Shown here one piece after another: positions 52,002 through 62,935 of a stretch of DNA of 64,000 bases (positions within the stretch are counted from its first letter, which is position 1; each line of letters opens with the position of its first letter). The notes beneath the pieces were generated by a model, which saw only the letters and a program-made list of their open reading frames with translations, searched no databases and was not told the origin of the DNA. Source of the stretch: Persephonella marina EX-H1 (GTDB lineage: Bacteria; Aquificota; Aquificia; Aquificales; Hydrogenothermaceae); the NCBI RefSeq assembly GCF_000021565.1, contig NC_012440.1:310001-374000 (forward strand). The letters run 5' to 3'. Both the position numbers and the translations under genes were made by a program.

Positions 52002-55000
52002 TCACTCCTCATAACTGTACTTACCTATCTCTACTTTGAAGAAAAGCTTTTTCTCCTCAAGCTCCTTAAACAGTTTTTCCAACTCTTTTTCATAGTCTGC
52101 CTTACCCTGCTCAATCCTGTCCATTAAGCTTTCAAGCTCTTTAGTAAAGCTCTCATTTACAAATCTATAGATATCTTCCCTTCTCTTTATAAGCTCCATA
52201 ACCTGTCTTCCAAGTTTTGTTGGAAAGAGATATCCTCTTCTCTCAATTATGTAATGTCTGTCCAGAAGTTTCTGAACAGTTATTGCGTATGTTGATGGTC
52301 TTCCTATTCCTTTTTCTTTCATCTCCTTAATTATCTCACCAAATGTGTAGTATGAAACCTTAGGCTTGAGATGGTAGCTTTTTTTCTTAATATCTACCTT
52401 TCCTTCTGGAAGTTTATCTGTGCGGATTGGGAGGATAAGATCATAACCATGCTGGATTATATCTGTTATAAGATCAGTCTCAACCTCTTCATCAAAAGCT
52501 CTCACACTGTATACCACCTTTTCAACAACAGCCTCTCTCATCTGCGAAGCTATAAACTGCCTGAATATAAGATCATAAAGCCTTATATGTTTCCTTGTTA
52601 TTCCCTGAAGGTTCATTGTGTATACCATTGATCTAAGTTCATCTGCATCAACAGCCCTTGTTGGTCTTATACATTCATGAGCTCCTTCGTATGTTGAGTA
52701 TGTTCTTATCTTTATATACTCACTGCCAAAATTCTCCTGTATATACTCTTTGGCAACAAAAACACCTGCATCAGAGACCCTTATACTGTCAGTTCTGTGG
52801 TATGTTATAAGACCAGCCTCAAACAGATCCTGTGCAAGGCTCATTGTCTCCTGTGGTGAAAAACCAAGCTCCCTTGCTGAAGCTGTGAGCATTGTGTCAG
52901 TTGAGAAAGGTCTTACAAATAACTTTTCTTCCTTTTTTTCTTTAACTGAGACGATAACAAACTGTATATTCTGGTAGAACCATTTTGCCCTGTTTCTGTC
53001 TTCAAAACTGAACTCAACAGGAATGTTATCTATAAAGACTCTCACAACAGCTATCTTCTGCTTTGCCTGGTCTGTTCTTTCTATTATCCATTCCAGAACA
53101 GGTGTCTGTACTCTACCTGCTGATAGATAATGTCTGTGAAGCTTCTCCTGAACATACTGTGATATTGTAAAACCTATCCATCTGTCTGAGATTCTCCTTA
53201 AAAGCTGTGCTTTTACAAGGTTTTTGTCAATATCTCTGTAGTTCTCAACAGCCTCTAAAAATGCTTTCTTAGTAACCTCGTGGAACTCTGCTCTTTTTAC
53301 ATTAAAGTTGTAAGGCTTACTTAATAGGTATAGATCGTAGCTTATCTTCTCACCTTCAGTATCAGGGTCTGTTGCTATAAAAACCTCCTGAACCTCAAGA
53401 TCAAGCTCCCTTATACCTTCTATAATATGTTTTCTGCCTTCATCAATAGGTTCAAATACAGGTATGAAATGACTGTTCTTCCTGACGCCAAAGTACTCCT
53501 CTTCTTTGTTAAGATCAAATATATGACCTTTACTGGCTATGATCGTTAAGAATTTATCTCCTATAGCTATCTCGTAGGCGTCTATACCTTTGAGCTTTCT
53601 TCTTAATGGCTTACCAAAGAAGTTTGCTATTGTTCTTGCCTTATTAGGTGATTCCACGATAACAACAGTTGTTTTAAAGGACTGCCTCTCCTCAACGATT
53701 ATCTCACCTGAAAGAACCTTCCTGACATTCTCCCTGTCCTGATCTATCTCTTTCAATATCTTTTCAAGATCAACCTGATCTGCAGGTTTAAACTGGATGT
53801 CCTCACTGAACCATCTTACTTTTTTCTGGAGTGAGTAGAAGGCTTTATCATCATCAACAAGAAGATATGCAAGACCTTTTGTTAGACCTCCAGCATAAAG
53901 CCTTGATGTTCTCCCTGAAGCCTGTATATAACCTGTTACATCCGCTGTTATAAGTATGAATCCCTCATCAGTTTTTTTAAGTGTTATTTCCGGTGAATCT
54001 TTTATCTGGTCAAAAACCTCGGGTTTCTCAACAATACTTTTTACATATACCTGTATCTCCCTCAATCTTTCAGCCTTTTCTCTGTCTAACTTCTCTTCAG
54101 GTATGAAGGCGTATACCTTCAAAAAGTTTATATACTCGTAAAGCTGTCTGACTTCCTGTGGATCTATAAGTTTTTTCTTTATAAGAAATGGGGTTAGAGT
54201 CAGCATAAAGTAGTAAAGATGTATAAACTCCTCCTCAAATCTTATGTTGAACTGTAGTTTTGGAACACCTACAAATAACGCATATCTTATAACATCAGGA
54301 AGATCAAGACCTCTTGCTATCGGGTTTCTGTAGCTTGCAAAACCAACAACTACAGGTATCTCACCTGATCTGAACTTCTCTAAACTGTCCATAAGGTCTT
54401 CATACGAGATAGCATTTATACCTTTCTCATTTAAGAACTTAACATACCTTTCTAATGTCTCTCTTGTTTCAGATGATGAGAGGAAAACAAGCCCTCCAGA
54501 TCCAAGTTTTTTTATCCTCTCAACGGAAGTTTCCCATACATCATCAGGCTTCTCATAAAGATCTTCAATATTTCTGAGTGTCAGGGAAGGTCTTCCAACC
54601 TCAAATCCAAGAAGCTCTCTGAAAAGGTTTACCCTTTTTGATCTTGGGTTTGATGTGGCTGAGGATACTATAAGAACACCTTTTCTCTTCTGACTTATCC
54701 TGTTTATCTTTTCCTGCCATCTGTTGAATATCTCAAGATCTTTCTCTTCTGGCTGACCCTGTCTGAAAATTTTCTGTTTAAATGTTATGAACTTTAATGT
54801 ATCCTGTATATCCTCTTCTGAAAAACCAAGTAGCATAAGTATCTTGTCTATATTCTTTGCACTTTTTAACACGCTATCAACATCATCAACAAAGACAAGT
54901 GAGAACTCACCTTTTGGAATTATGTCTATATTTTTGTACAGGAACATAGTTGTTGTTATCAGAATATCAAACTGGTTATTTTTTATCTTCTCTTTAAGCT

Positions 55001-55496
55001 CCTCCTGTTTTTTCTTTGTTTTTGCAAATTTTGTGCTGTAAGCCAGAAGTTTTTCAGGATCCATACCAAATGATACAAGCCTGTCATAAGCCTGATTAAC
55101 GAGAACCTGCGTTGGGAATATAAGGTATGTTTTTTTACCTTCCTTTTCTGAAAGATATTTTGAAAGAACAAGACCAAATGTTGTTTTCCCTATCCCTGTG
55201 GGTGCTAAAAGTGCGTATGATATATTCAGAAAAAACCTTTTGGTCCATGTTTCCTGTATTGACCAAAGATCGTTATTTATTATCCCTTTAAAATAACTTT
55301 TAAAATCATTTACCTTATCCCATAGCTCACATATTGAAACAAACCTGCCGTAACCTAATATACCGCATATATCTTCCCTTGGTATCTCCTCAGGCAGACA
55401 GCTTTCACATAGAAGACCTTTTTCTAATCTTTCAGCTGTTATCTCCCCTCCGCAGTTTGGACAGATATCCTTATAAACAATAGGAATTGCAGACAA
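52002..55496 (-). CDS. rgy: Reverse gyrase
   Basis: Introduces positive supercoils; hallmark of high-temperature life. The 1164 residues are a helicase-topoisomerase fusion: Cys4 zinc finger (Cys12, 15, 30, 33), Walker A APTGIGKT (98-105), motif II VDDVD (203-207), SSATSNPR, QASGRTSR motif VI (525-532), TOPRIM VIVESPNKARTIANFFG (Glu615) with DPDTEGEK (711-718), and catalytic Tyr899 in GLITYHRTDSIRVSD. The second zinc finger usually found inside the TOPRIM part is absent: residues 672-700 have no cysteines. The start is TTG at 55496 with GGAGGG upstream. Full length and apparently intact. Confidence 0.96.
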   Translation of the reverse strand: MSAIPIVYKDICPNCGGEITAERLEKGLLCESCLPEEIPREDICGILGYGRFVSICELWDKVNDFKSYFKGIINNDLWSIQETWTKRFFLNISYALLAPTGIGKTTFGLVLSKYLSEKEGKKTYLIFPTQVLVNQAYDRLVSFGMDPEKLLAYSTKFAKTKKKQEELKEKIKNNQFDILITTTMFLYKNIDIIPKGEFSLVFVDDVDSVLKSAKNIDKILMLLGFSEEDIQDTLKFITFKQKIFRQGQPEEKDLEIFNRWQEKINRISQKRKGVLIVSSATSNPRSKRVNLFRELLGFEVGRPSLTLRNIEDLYEKPDDVWETSVERIKKLGSGGLVFLSSSETRETLERYVKFLNEKGINAISYEDLMDSLEKFRSGEIPVVVGFASYRNPIARGLDLPDVIRYALFVGVPKLQFNIRFEEEFIHLYYFMLTLTPFLIKKKLIDPQEVRQLYEYINFLKVYAFIPEEKLDREKAERLREIQVYVKSIVEKPEVFDQIKDSPEITLKKTDEGFILITADVTGYIQASGRTSRLYAGGLTKGLAYLLVDDDKAFYSLQKKVRWFSEDIQFKPADQVDLEKILKEIDQDRENVRKVLSGEIIVEERQSFKTTVVIVESPNKARTIANFFGKPLRRKLKGIDAYEIAIGDKFLTIIASKGHIFDLNKEEEYFGVRKNSHFIPVFEPIDEGRKHIIEGIRELDLEVQEVFIATDPDTEGEKISYDLYLLSKPYNFNVKRAEFHEVTKKAFLEAVENYRDIDKNLVKAQLLRRISDRWIGFTISQYVQEKLHRHYLSAGRVQTPVLEWIIERTDQAKQKIAVVRVFIDNIPVEFSFEDRNRAKWFYQNIQFVIVSVKEKKEEKLFVRPFSTDTMLTASARELGFSPQETMSLAQDLFEAGLITYHRTDSIRVSDAGVFVAKEYIQENFGSEYIKIRTYSTYEGAHECIRPTRAVDADELRSMVYTMNLQGITRKHIRLYDLIFRQFIASQMREAVVEKVVYSVRAFDEEVETDLITDIIQHGYDLILPIRTDKLPEGKVDIKKKSYHLKPKVSYYTFGEIIKEMKEKGIGRPSTYAITVQKLLDRHYIIERRGYLFPTKLGRQVMELIKRREDIYRFVNESFTKELESLMDRIEQGKADYEKELEKLFKELEEKKLFFKVEIGKYSYEE

Positions 55497-58745: not shown

Positions 58746-60731
58746 ATGTTTCCTGAGTTTACAGTATCGGACGAAAATATAGATCAGCAGAAAGAGGCTG
58801 TTTTAAAACAGATAGAGGAAAATAAAAAAGAGATAGAGAAGTTATTGGAGATTAAGGATAAAACCTATAAAAACTTTGTGAGACCATACCAGTTACTTCA
58901 GGAGAAGTTAGGCTGGCTTTTCAGCCCTATATCACATCTGAATTACGTAAAGAACTCAGAAAAGACACAGGAAGCTTATACATCTGTACTTCCCGCTCTT
59001 ACAGAGTACCATACATCTATTTCTCAGGATGAGAGGCTTTACAGAGCTTTTAAACAGATATATGAGAATGAGAAGGACACACTCAATCAGGAACAGAAAA
59101 AGGTTCTTCAGGATCTTATAAGGGATTTTGAGCTTTCAGGTGTGGGTCTTCCTGAAGATGAGAGGAAAAAGATAAAAGATATAAATATTAAGCTATCACA
59201 GCTCCAGAACAGCTTTGCCCAGAATATACTCAACGCAACCGACAGTTACGAGATGATAATTGAAGATCCTGATGATGTAAAGGAGCTCCCAGAGATAGAA
59301 AAGGATAACGCAAAAATAGAAAGAGATGGCAGAGAGGTCTACAGATTTACACTTCACCAGCCAAGTTATATAGCCTATATGACCTATGGATCAAACAGGG
59401 AGAAAAGGGAGCAGCTCTACAGAGCCTATGTTACTAGAGCACCTGAAAATGAGAAGATACTTGAGGAGATACTGAGCCTTAGGTATGAAAAGGCAAGAAT
59501 TTTAGGTTTTAAAAACTATGCTGAGCTTTCACTGGCAACAAAGATGGCAAAATCACCACAGCAGGTTATAGATTTTCTCAGAGAGCTTGCAAGAAAGAGC
59601 AGACCCCAAGCAGAAAGAGAGTATGAGGAACTTAATGAGTTTGTAAAAGATCTTGGTCTTAAAGACGATGTTCAGGCTTACGATTTTGCATACTACAGCG
59701 AAAAACTGAAGAAAGAAAAGTTTAACGTTGATGATGAAGAGTACAAGCCTTACTTTGAGAAAAACAGTGTGGTTGAAGGACTTTTTAAATTCCTGAACAG
59801 ATTTTTAAAGCTTGATTTTGAAAAGGTAGATGTTCCTGTTTGGGATGAGACAGTTGATGTTTACCATATTTACAGAAAAGGATCGTTAATAGGAAGGCTC
59901 TATCTTGATCTTGAGGCGAGAGAAGGAAAGAGAGATGGTGCATGGATGGATGAGTGGGTATCCCACCATGAAGACGAAAAAGGTAATATAATCCCACCTG
60001 TTGCATTTATTGTTGCCAACTTCTCACCATCTACAGACAAAAATCCATCACTTCTCAGACCTTACGATGTTGAGACCTTATTCCATGAGATGGGACACGC
60101 TCTACACCATCTTTTGAGTGAAGTAAAGGAACCATTTGTAAGCGGGATAGCAGGTGTTGAGTGGGACGCTGTTGAGTTTCCTTCACAGTTCTTTGAGAAG
60201 TTTGCCTATGACAGGGAAGTTTTAAAGCTTTTTGCAAAACATTACAGAACCGGAGAGCCCATGCCTGAAGAGATGATGGACAGGCTGAAAAATGCTAAAA
60301 ACTTCCAGTCTGCACTTGCTATGGTAAGACAGCTTGAGTTTGCACTTTTTGATATGCTTATACATCTTGACAGGTATACAGCAGAGGATGTTCAGAAGAT
60401 ACTGGATCAGGTCAGGGAAGAGGTTTCTGTTATTAAACCTCCTTCTTACAATAAGTTCCAGTGGTCTTTCAGCCATATATTTGCCGGTGGGTATGCTGCA
60501 GGATACTACAGCTACAAATGGGCTGAGGTTCTTTCAGCTGACGCTTACTTTATGTTCATAGATAACGGTATATACAACGATGAGCTATCAGAGAGTTTTT
60601 ATACAGAAATACTCTCAAAAGGTGGAAGCAGACCTGCAGATCAGCTTTTTAGAAATTTTGCAGGAAGAGAGCCTGATATAGATGCATTACTAAGACTTAG
60701 TGGAATAAAAAACGGACAGGAGGTTTCGTAA
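58746..60731 (+). CDS. prlC: M3-family zinc oligopeptidase (oligopeptidase A-like)
   Basis: Cytosolic zinc peptidase of 661 residues that cleaves short peptides, including signal-peptide fragments. The zinc motif is TLFHEMGHALHHLL (His447, Glu448, His451), with the third ligand in EFPSQFFEKF (Glu about 475), and the family segment YSYKWAEVLSADAY near the end. It is fully coupled: the ATG follows the pyrD stop, and its stop is followed directly by the next ATG. SppA in the same window makes substrates of this kind. Confidence 0.93.
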   Translation: MFPEFTVSDENIDQQKEAVLKQIEENKKEIEKLLEIKDKTYKNFVRPYQLLQEKLGWLFSPISHLNYVKNSEKTQEAYTSVLPALTEYHTSISQDERLYRAFKQIYENEKDTLNQEQKKVLQDLIRDFELSGVGLPEDERKKIKDINIKLSQLQNSFAQNILNATDSYEMIIEDPDDVKELPEIEKDNAKIERDGREVYRFTLHQPSYIAYMTYGSNREKREQLYRAYVTRAPENEKILEEILSLRYEKARILGFKNYAELSLATKMAKSPQQVIDFLRELARKSRPQAEREYEELNEFVKDLGLKDDVQAYDFAYYSEKLKKEKFNVDDEEYKPYFEKNSVVEGLFKFLNRFLKLDFEKVDVPVWDETVDVYHIYRKGSLIGRLYLDLEAREGKRDGAWMDEWVSHHEDEKGNIIPPVAFIVANFSPSTDKNPSLLRPYDVETLFHEMGHALHHLLSEVKEPFVSGIAGVEWDAVEFPSQFFEKFAYDREVLKLFAKHYRTGEPMPEEMMDRLKNAKNFQSALAMVRQLEFALFDMLIHLDRYTAEDVQKILDQVREEVSVIKPPSYNKFQWSFSHIFAGGYAAGYYSYKWAEVLSADAYFMFIDNGIYNDELSESFYTEILSKGGSRPADQLFRNFAGREPDIDALLRLSGIKNGQEVS

Positions 60732-61058: not shown

Positions 61059-61115
61059 GTAGATTAATTTAAAACAGGACATTAAATTTAATAAATAAAA
61101 ACTGTGGTGCCTGTT

Positions 61116-62288
61116 ATGAATTTTATTGAGGCGACTTATATTCTCAGATCAAAAAAGGATAAAGGTCCAGATTATATAAACAGATTTCTGGAGAGTATAT
61201 CAATCTTCAACGGAAAAAATTTAACGGATAAAAAATATCTTCCTCAATTAGTGGAGACAGACATTTTTTATGATGAGAGTAGAAAAATATATGAGTATAT
61301 ATTCAAGATAGGATTTCCGATTGTACTTTTTGAACACAACATCTCTTCCATAATCAGTATTCTTAGAAAGGTTACTGCACATTCAGGTGAGGATGAGATC
61401 GTTATAGTAAACATAGATATTCCATCATGCTATACAGATCATTTCTCCGGTCCAAAGTATGGAACTGACAGGATCAAAAGGATTTTAGAGATTGAACATG
61501 AACCTGTTATTGCAGGACATATTTTTCCTTTCGTAGGTGTTGGTCCTGAAGTATATGTAGATCTATTTGAAAAGTTAGCTGTAAACGGTGTTGATATTGT
61601 TATAGAGGATACATCCTTTATAGATGACAGACTTATTCCATTTGATAAAAGGGTTGAGCTTTGCCTGAAAAAAGCTGAACAGATAGAGAAAGATACAGGG
61701 AGAAAGATAATCTATATTCCTGTTCTAACAGGAAGTGTTGGAGAGGTATTTGAAAAAGCAAGATTTGCTGAAAGTATTGGTATACACGGCTTTCATATAG
61801 ATATAGATCCGTATGGTATGGAATTTTTAAGATCACTTTCAGATGGAACTGAAGGAATACTTGCGGTTTCAGGTAGCGTTTTCAGCAATAGATATCTTGA
61901 AGGACAGGTTTTTGTGAAGCTTTTAAGACTGTCAGGTGCTGATATTCTTAATATACCATCACCGTTTAACGAAAATAGATACACACTGAGCAGGGTGTAT
62001 GAGCTTATAAGAGAGGCTACAGATAGATGGGAAAATATAAAACCAGTGTTTCCCATGCTTTCAGGTTATACAAAACCCTCAGATATCCCGGATATATACA
62101 GGGAGTTTGGAAATCAGGTGATAATCAATATAGAGGAAAGTTATTACAATCATCCAGAGGGACTTCAAGCTGGAGTAAGGGCATTTAGGGAGGCTTTAGA
62201 TTGCGTAATTAAAGGTATATCACTTGATGAGTGCAGAAAAAAGAGTAGAGATCTTGATCTGGCTCTGTCAAAATGGGGGAGTCATTGA
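61116..62288 (+). CDS. RuBisCO-like protein (MtnW-related) with altered active site
   Basis: 390 residues with the large-subunit pattern: N-terminus FIEATYILRS as in MtnW (ATYLL), SGPKYGTDRIKRIL (111-124), a TIM-barrel region (130-340), HPEGLQAGVRAFREALD (346-362) and the ending DLALSKWG shared with MtnW. Catalytic positions differ strongly: the KPK/FKG loop is HIFPFVGVG (135-143); the carbamylated Lys of VDxIKDDE is Ile163 in VDIVIEDT (159-166), and the metal Glu is Thr166; the GGG phosphate loop is EES (340-342). So it cannot use the normal carbamate-Mg chemistry. It overlaps mtnX by 16 nt. ATG 61116 is chosen because it gives the MtnW-like N-terminus; GTG 61104 is an alternative. Confidence 0.8.
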   Translation: MNFIEATYILRSKKDKGPDYINRFLESISIFNGKNLTDKKYLPQLVETDIFYDESRKIYEYIFKIGFPIVLFEHNISSIISILRKVTAHSGEDEIVIVNIDIPSCYTDHFSGPKYGTDRIKRILEIEHEPVIAGHIFPFVGVGPEVYVDLFEKLAVNGVDIVIEDTSFIDDRLIPFDKRVELCLKKAEQIEKDTGRKIIYIPVLTGSVGEVFEKARFAESIGIHGFHIDIDPYGMEFLRSLSDGTEGILAVSGSVFSNRYLEGQVFVKLLRLSGADILNIPSPFNENRYTLSRVYELIREATDRWENIKPVFPMLSGYTKPSDIPDIYREFGNQVIINIEESYYNHPEGLQAGVRAFREALDCVIKGISLDECRKKSRDLDLALSKWGSH

Positions 62289-62935
62289 AAGATCCCGCTG
62301 TATTTTCTGATTTTGATGGAACAATCACGCAGAGAGATGTGATCATCTCTATTATGGAACAGTTTGCCCCTGAAGAATGGAAAAAGATCCACTCAGACCT
62401 TATGACAGGTGTGATAGATGTTGATCTAGGAATAAAAAAGATGTTCAATCTTATACCATCTGAGAAAAAGGACGAGATAGTCCAGTGGTGCAAAGAAAAT
62501 GTAAAGTTAAGAGATGGTTTTGAGGATTTTCTTTTATTTCTGAAGAAAAGGAATATACCTTTCATTATCCTCAGTGGTGGTGTTGATTTTTACATATATC
62601 CTATTATGGAACCTTATATGGATCTGATCACGAAGATATACTCCAACAGGGGTATCTTCTCAGGTAATTATATAGATGTTGATTTCATATATAAATGTAA
62701 CTCACTCTGCAAAAGACACTGCGGCATATGTAAGCCCTATATACTAAAGAATTATAAAGATAAAAACAGCCTGATTTATATAGGAGACGGTATAACGGAC
62801 TTGGATGGAGCCCTTTATAGTGATATAATTTTTGCAACTGGCTATCTTGTCGATTATTTACAGAAATTGCATATTAAATATAATGAATATTATAATTTTT
62901 ACGATATAAAGATAAAGCTGCAGAGATTGCTATAA
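62273..62935 (+). CDS. mtnX: 2-hydroxy-3-keto-5-methylthiopentenyl-1-phosphate phosphatase MtnX-like
   Basis: HAD phosphatase of the methionine salvage pathway in Bacillus-type organisms, where it follows the RuBisCO-like MtnW. The 220 residues show FSDFDGTITQRDVII (Asp13 nucleophile, Asp15), MEQFAPEEWKKI, FIILSGGVDFYIYP, CNSLCKRHCGICKP (an MtnX-specific Cys cluster) and IYIGDGITDLDGALYSD, aligning with MtnX throughout. ATG 62273 lies within the upstream gene; TTG 62285, with GGGGGAG before it, is an equally good start. Overlap with the RuBisCO-like gene ties the two functions. No other salvage gene is in the window. Confidence 0.87.
   Translation: MGESLKDPAVFSDFDGTITQRDVIISIMEQFAPEEWKKIHSDLMTGVIDVDLGIKKMFNLIPSEKKDEIVQWCKENVKLRDGFEDFLLFLKKRNIPFIILSGGVDFYIYPIMEPYMDLITKIYSNRGIFSGNYIDVDFIYKCNSLCKRHCGICKPYILKNYKDKNSLIYIGDGITDLDGALYSDIIFATGYLVDYLQKLHIKYNEYYNFYDIKIKLQRLL

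Follow-up and report, generated by a model that had tools for sequence, protein, structure and literature searches.

An MtnW-derived RuBisCO-like protein of Persephonella marina without the carbamate lysine

The window—the whole 64,000-nucleotide stretch of DNA that was analysed, from the thermophilic vent bacterium Persephonella marina EX-H1—encodes a RuBisCO-like protein (RLP) descended from MtnW, the 2,3-diketo-5-methylthiopentyl-1-phosphate (DK-MTP-1-P) enolase. To judge from its residues, this protein appears no longer to form a lysine carbamate or to bind Mg at the old site. We regard it as evenly balanced that, freed by the redundancy of another enzyme, MtnC, the protein has ceased to be a carbamate/Mg enolase and has been retained, most likely to serve the phosphatase MtnX as a partner without catalysis of its own.

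The reading frame of the RLP is intact over 390 codons (Table 1). Pfam RuBisCO_large (PF00016) matches the protein at 1e-22 (81.3 bits; cut-off 30.1) and PDB entry 2oek, the MtnW of Geobacillus, at 1.5e-38. NCBIfam MtnW models match at 2e-50, with scores far under their curated cut-offs: 142.5 versus 513.6 bits for the equivalog TIGR03332, and 171 versus 409 for PRK09549. Homology to RuBisCO and RLPs is thus beyond doubt, and the match to the catalytic domain, together with a predicted structure that comprises the N-terminal domain and the (beta/alpha)8 barrel, places the protein in the RuBisCO superfamily among the form IV RLPs. By HMM, PDB match and fold, the nearest family is MtnW. AlphaFold2, supplied with 53 related sequences, returned a model with pLDDT 92 and pTM 0.90 in which the RuBisCO/MtnW fold is retained; its best structural neighbors are MtnW structures, a likeness to be expected in part since the alignment includes MtnW, while the confidence values apply to the window sequence itself. 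Family members begin MNYIEATYLL, which makes the ATG at 61116 a likelier start than the GTG at 61104. A RuBisCO-family search found no second RuBisCO or RLP gene in the P. marina genome.

Table 1. Genes of the RLP locus and altered sites within the RLP (positions in the window)
Feature	Position	Strand	Basis or remark
M3 family oligopeptidase	58746..60731	+	conserved neighbor in most relatives
ABM-domain (HmuQ-like) protein, 108 aa	60732..61058	+	directly upstream of RLP wherever contig reaches
RLP (MtnW-derived), 390 aa	61116..62288	+	intact ORF, profile and PDB matches
F137-P138-F139	61524..61532	+	F137 at position of RuBisCO K175 / MtnW barrel-entry Lys; alignment
I163-E164-D165-T166	61602..61613	+	replaces K-D-D-E (carbamylated Lys and Mg ligands); alignment
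Residues 248-253, short strand-5 region	61857..61874	+	AHPA segment with MtnW H294-equivalent deleted; alignment
S316-G317-Y318	62061..62069	+	replaces MtnW S-A-G (RuBisCO S-G-G, 379-381); alignment
E340-E341-S342	62133..62141	+	replaces phosphate-binding G-G-G, E340-E341 = G403-G404; alignment
C363 and C373	62202..62234	+	pair conserved in Hydrogenothermaceae clade (C-terminally truncated L015 not counted), not in MtnW
mtnX-like HAD phosphatase	62273..62935	+	overlaps RLP stop by 16 bases; TIGR03333 219 bits (cut-off 303), 2fea 185 bits

To map the active-site columns, we aligned the protein to RuBisCO of forms I and III, 25 MtnW loci and other RLPs. I163 occupies the column of the carbamate lysine (K201 in spinach RuBisCO, K173 in Geobacillus MtnW), and in the model it lies where that lysine belongs, at the C-terminal end of barrel strand 2 (residues 161–164). 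T166 stands in the E204 column, so the metal glutamate is gone, and a deletion covers the H294 and R295 columns. The Lys98 column, which we take from work on the Geobacillus enzyme to hold the MtnW-specific general base, is filled by V86; K85 adjoins it and a 2-residue insertion lies nearby, making the position ambiguous. Among the RuBisCO residues K175, K177, K201, D203, E204, H294 and K334, only D203 is present, as D165. The replacements that a preliminary description had read from the sequence at the carbamate lysine (Ile163), the metal glutamate (Thr166) and the phosphate-binding glycines (EES for GGG) all hold in this alignment. Its statement that the carbamate lysine, most metal ligands and the phosphate loop have been lost likewise stands, with the proviso that D165 survives at the metal site. 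It had also set FPF against a KPK-type loop; FPF is correct, but KPK is the wrong yardstick. MtnW enolases carry only the first of the two lysines (FK[GSQA]), and F137 is therefore a meaningful loss, whereas position 139 is not. Toward the C-terminus, the two clade-specific cysteines, ten residues apart, may form a disulfide or belong to an interface.

Stages in the loss of this site can be read across genera, here labeled g2, g3, g5 and g7. The carbamate motif is KDDE in g2 and g3, KENE in g5, RE(S/N/D)E in g7 and IEDT in the window RLP, and the Lys98 position is occupied, in the same order, by K, R, E and V. Of the core catalytic columns (K98, K175, K201, D203, E204 and H294), g2 and g3 keep 23/24, g5 4/12, g7 17/48 and the window RLP 1/6; for other MtnW-conserved columns the figures are 63%, 55%, 43% and 42%. 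Along the series, the core columns thus shift from better kept than the background to worse kept. Taken singly, the window RLP shows no significant difference between core plus phosphate columns and the rest (p = 0.31); in g7 the same comparison gives p = 0.017, from sequences that are not independent. Since two genera with the same gene neighborhood still carry KDDE, we take the lineage to be MtnW-derived and the site to have been lost stepwise. Where the metal site used to be, all g7 members share the residues E98, R201, E204 and N294, while other pocket positions vary, and these four residues might constitute a charged cluster in place of the carbamate/Mg center. The same four positions in the window RLP are mostly apolar (V or K, I, T, and deleted).

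Within Aquificota, the family occurs in 19 of 136 genomes, all of them Hydrogenothermaceae. In a tree built without IV-Photo and DeepYkrW sequences, the Hydrogenothermaceae RLPs are monophyletic (100/99) and sister to the MtnW of Firmicutes and Methylomirabilis (97/98)—beside the sampled MtnW enolases, that is, and not inside them. The window RLP groups with g7 as its sister, at moderate support (90/86), and has a long terminal branch (1.11). A near-canonical member of the clade, the RLP of G001, scores 274 bits against 2oek, 164 against the Chlorobium RLP and 134 against R. palustris RLP2, so the clade is MtnW-like and not IV-Photo-like. A distinct and possibly undescribed branch of RLPs, as had been suggested, is therefore borne out as far as the separate clade goes, and a literature search, with the core RLP reviews outside its reach, found no published account of the Persephonella RLP; the lost site, on the other hand, does not define the branch.

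Loss of the carbamate lysine has not been followed by decay in the sister genus g7, for dN/dS between pairs of its RLPs, all of which lack that lysine, is 0.05–0.18. These values, measured in g7 and not on the window gene, are simple Nei–Gojobori counts with some dS near saturation; they are similar to those of near-canonical g3 pairs (0.09–0.14) and exceed those of most neighboring genes. The RLP is the fastest gene of its cluster, with 31–40% identity to relatives versus 64–97% for the peptidase, dihydroorotate dehydrogenase (DHODH) and cytochrome neighbors. Within the set, dN/dS peaks at 0.18, in the comparison of G020 with the RLP L015/L030 (G032), which has a shorter C-terminus and a degraded HP/HK-G stretch, conserved elsewhere. 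In G064 (contig C10, 1530–2644), the RLP is interrupted by stops and frame changes; this genome is 55% complete and its matches to mtnX and mtnD are likewise fragmented, and the break is probably an assembly error, possibly decay.

Gene order around the RLP is largely conserved: DHODH, M3 peptidase, ABM protein, RLP, mtnX, cytochrome c/b. In almost every case, RLP and mtnX either overlap or are separated by no more than a few bases. In the MtnX copies examined, the HAD motifs (DxDGT, SGG, CK and GD(G/S)ITD) are intact. The pairing is not obligatory: G003 and G011 have mtnX but no RLP, and the RLP of G002 (L019) has no adjacent mtnX. Elsewhere in the window, an ORF of 1164 aa (52002–55496, minus strand, TTG start) was recognized by eye from its sequence as reverse-gyrase-like.

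The P. marina genome also encodes mtnA, mtnB and mtnD, the last two side by side, and the bifunctional enolase-phosphatase MtnC. MtnW plus MtnX, and MtnC, are described in general as two alternatives (PMC6302742). MtnC is common in Aquificota and present in 36 of 41 genomes of the family; RLPs of this type are not widespread, and MtnW plus MtnX was therefore probably an added, redundant route. Given mtnA, mtnB, mtnD and MtnC, the RLP is probably dispensable for methionine salvage, and the presence of MtnC weakens the idea that the enolase step depends on it. MtnC is absent from G017 and G002, while G001 has both MtnC and a near-canonical RLP, and G010 has a piece of MtnC at a contig end; a complementary distribution of MtnC and near-canonical RLPs is suggestive only.

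These observations can be accommodated as follows. The common ancestor of these Hydrogenothermaceae genera would have had a canonical MtnW-type enolase paired with MtnX. Because MtnC, a single protein, covers both the enolase and the phosphatase reaction, the RLP would have been free to lose its carbamate/Mg site, and would then have lost it stepwise across the genera. The window RLP, presumably without MtnW catalysis, would have been kept as a pseudoenzyme, either a subunit or a regulator; MtnX, with which its gene is paired, is the most likely candidate for its partner. The preliminary description had left the choice between other chemistry and a non-catalytic partner undecided; the evidence leans toward a protein that would be non-catalytic for phosphosugar enolization, given that both the Gly-Gly that binds phosphate and the lysine of the barrel are missing and that MtnC makes the enolase step redundant.

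The main rival, which we consider unlikely, is a new enzyme: the barrel would have been remodeled to act on some other substrate without a metal, and MtnX would remove the phosphate from the product or an intermediate. Strong purifying selection on g7, the intact motifs of MtnX and the fact that the pair is mostly retained together are all consistent with such an enzyme, as is the invariance of E98, R201, E204 and N294 in g7 amid other pocket positions that vary: this set could be a new active site, and to that extent counts against the non-catalytic reading. The window RLP, however, lacks the set. Loss of the phosphate-binding residues speaks, moreover, against the pocket having simply been taken over for a different sugar phosphate; with the Gly-Gly site and K175 gone or variable, any phosphorylated substrate would need a new mode of binding.

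It seems improbable that the RLP persists as a weak DK-MTP-1-P enolase, or as a holder of that substrate, in an otherwise preserved order of MtnB, RLP, MtnX and MtnD. Spontaneous enolization at high growth temperature might relax the need for the carbamate/Mg site, and the genome has mtnA, mtnB and mtnD, mtnX next to the RLP, and no other RuBisCO-family gene that we could find; but MtnC already supplies both steps, the phosphate-binding residues are lost, and the argument from spontaneous rates is itself conjecture. Least credible is a gene no longer under selection in P. marina and simply drifting: the very long terminal branch, the fastest rate of the cluster and the unprotected catalytic columns would suit decay, but the frame is intact despite about 60% divergence, MtnW-conserved residues are kept as in g7 (40% versus 41%), where dN/dS is about 0.1, the full fold is predicted with confidence and the overlap with mtnX is preserved—and a pseudogene or frameshift was rejected as the main reading in view of that frame, that fold and the sister-genus dN/dS of 0.05–0.18.

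Metal-free enzyme or pseudoenzyme partner of a phosphatase, we are slightly inclined to believe that a RuBisCO-fold lineage has here left carbamate/Mg chemistry altogether, under selection, with living intermediates in sister genera. The stepwise loss can be read from living genera at one conserved locus, where relatives without the lysine are still selected, and this provides a natural series in which to follow the dismantling of an ancient, well-known active site and to ask what the fold can do afterwards.

Among known systems, MtnW (TIGR03332; PDB 2oek, 2zvi and 4nas) is the closest to the window RLP, as the best match in sequence and, with TM 0.86–0.90, in fold. The genomic context of the enolase is matched too, by the neighboring mtnX and by mtnA, mtnB and mtnD in the P. 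marina genome; the window RLP differs in having neither carbamate Lys, metal Glu, barrel Lys nor strand-5 His, and Glu-Glu for Gly-Gly. RuBisCO forms I and III share the superfamily and fold, but their carboxylase residues are absent from it. MtnC (TIGR01691), encoded elsewhere in the genome, performs the steps of MtnW and MtnX and is an unrelated HAD-type protein. A large ocean survey lists N123, K177, D198, F199, H327 and G404 as the poorly conserved active-site residues in sampled RuBisCO homologs; it names neither the carbamate lysine nor the residues that bind metal with it (PMC1821046). The near-canonical Hydrogenothermaceae RLPs (G001, G017, G010 and G002) belong to the same clade, lie in a similar neighborhood and are 37–40% identical to the window RLP, but they keep K98, K175 and KDDE, and are for that reason plausible, if predicted, working enolases; the phosphate-site glycines are altered in three of the four. 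The Arg-type RLPs of g7, the sister group, lack the carbamate lysine as the window RLP does, but have Arg in its place and Glu at the Lys98 position, and they keep the metal Glu.
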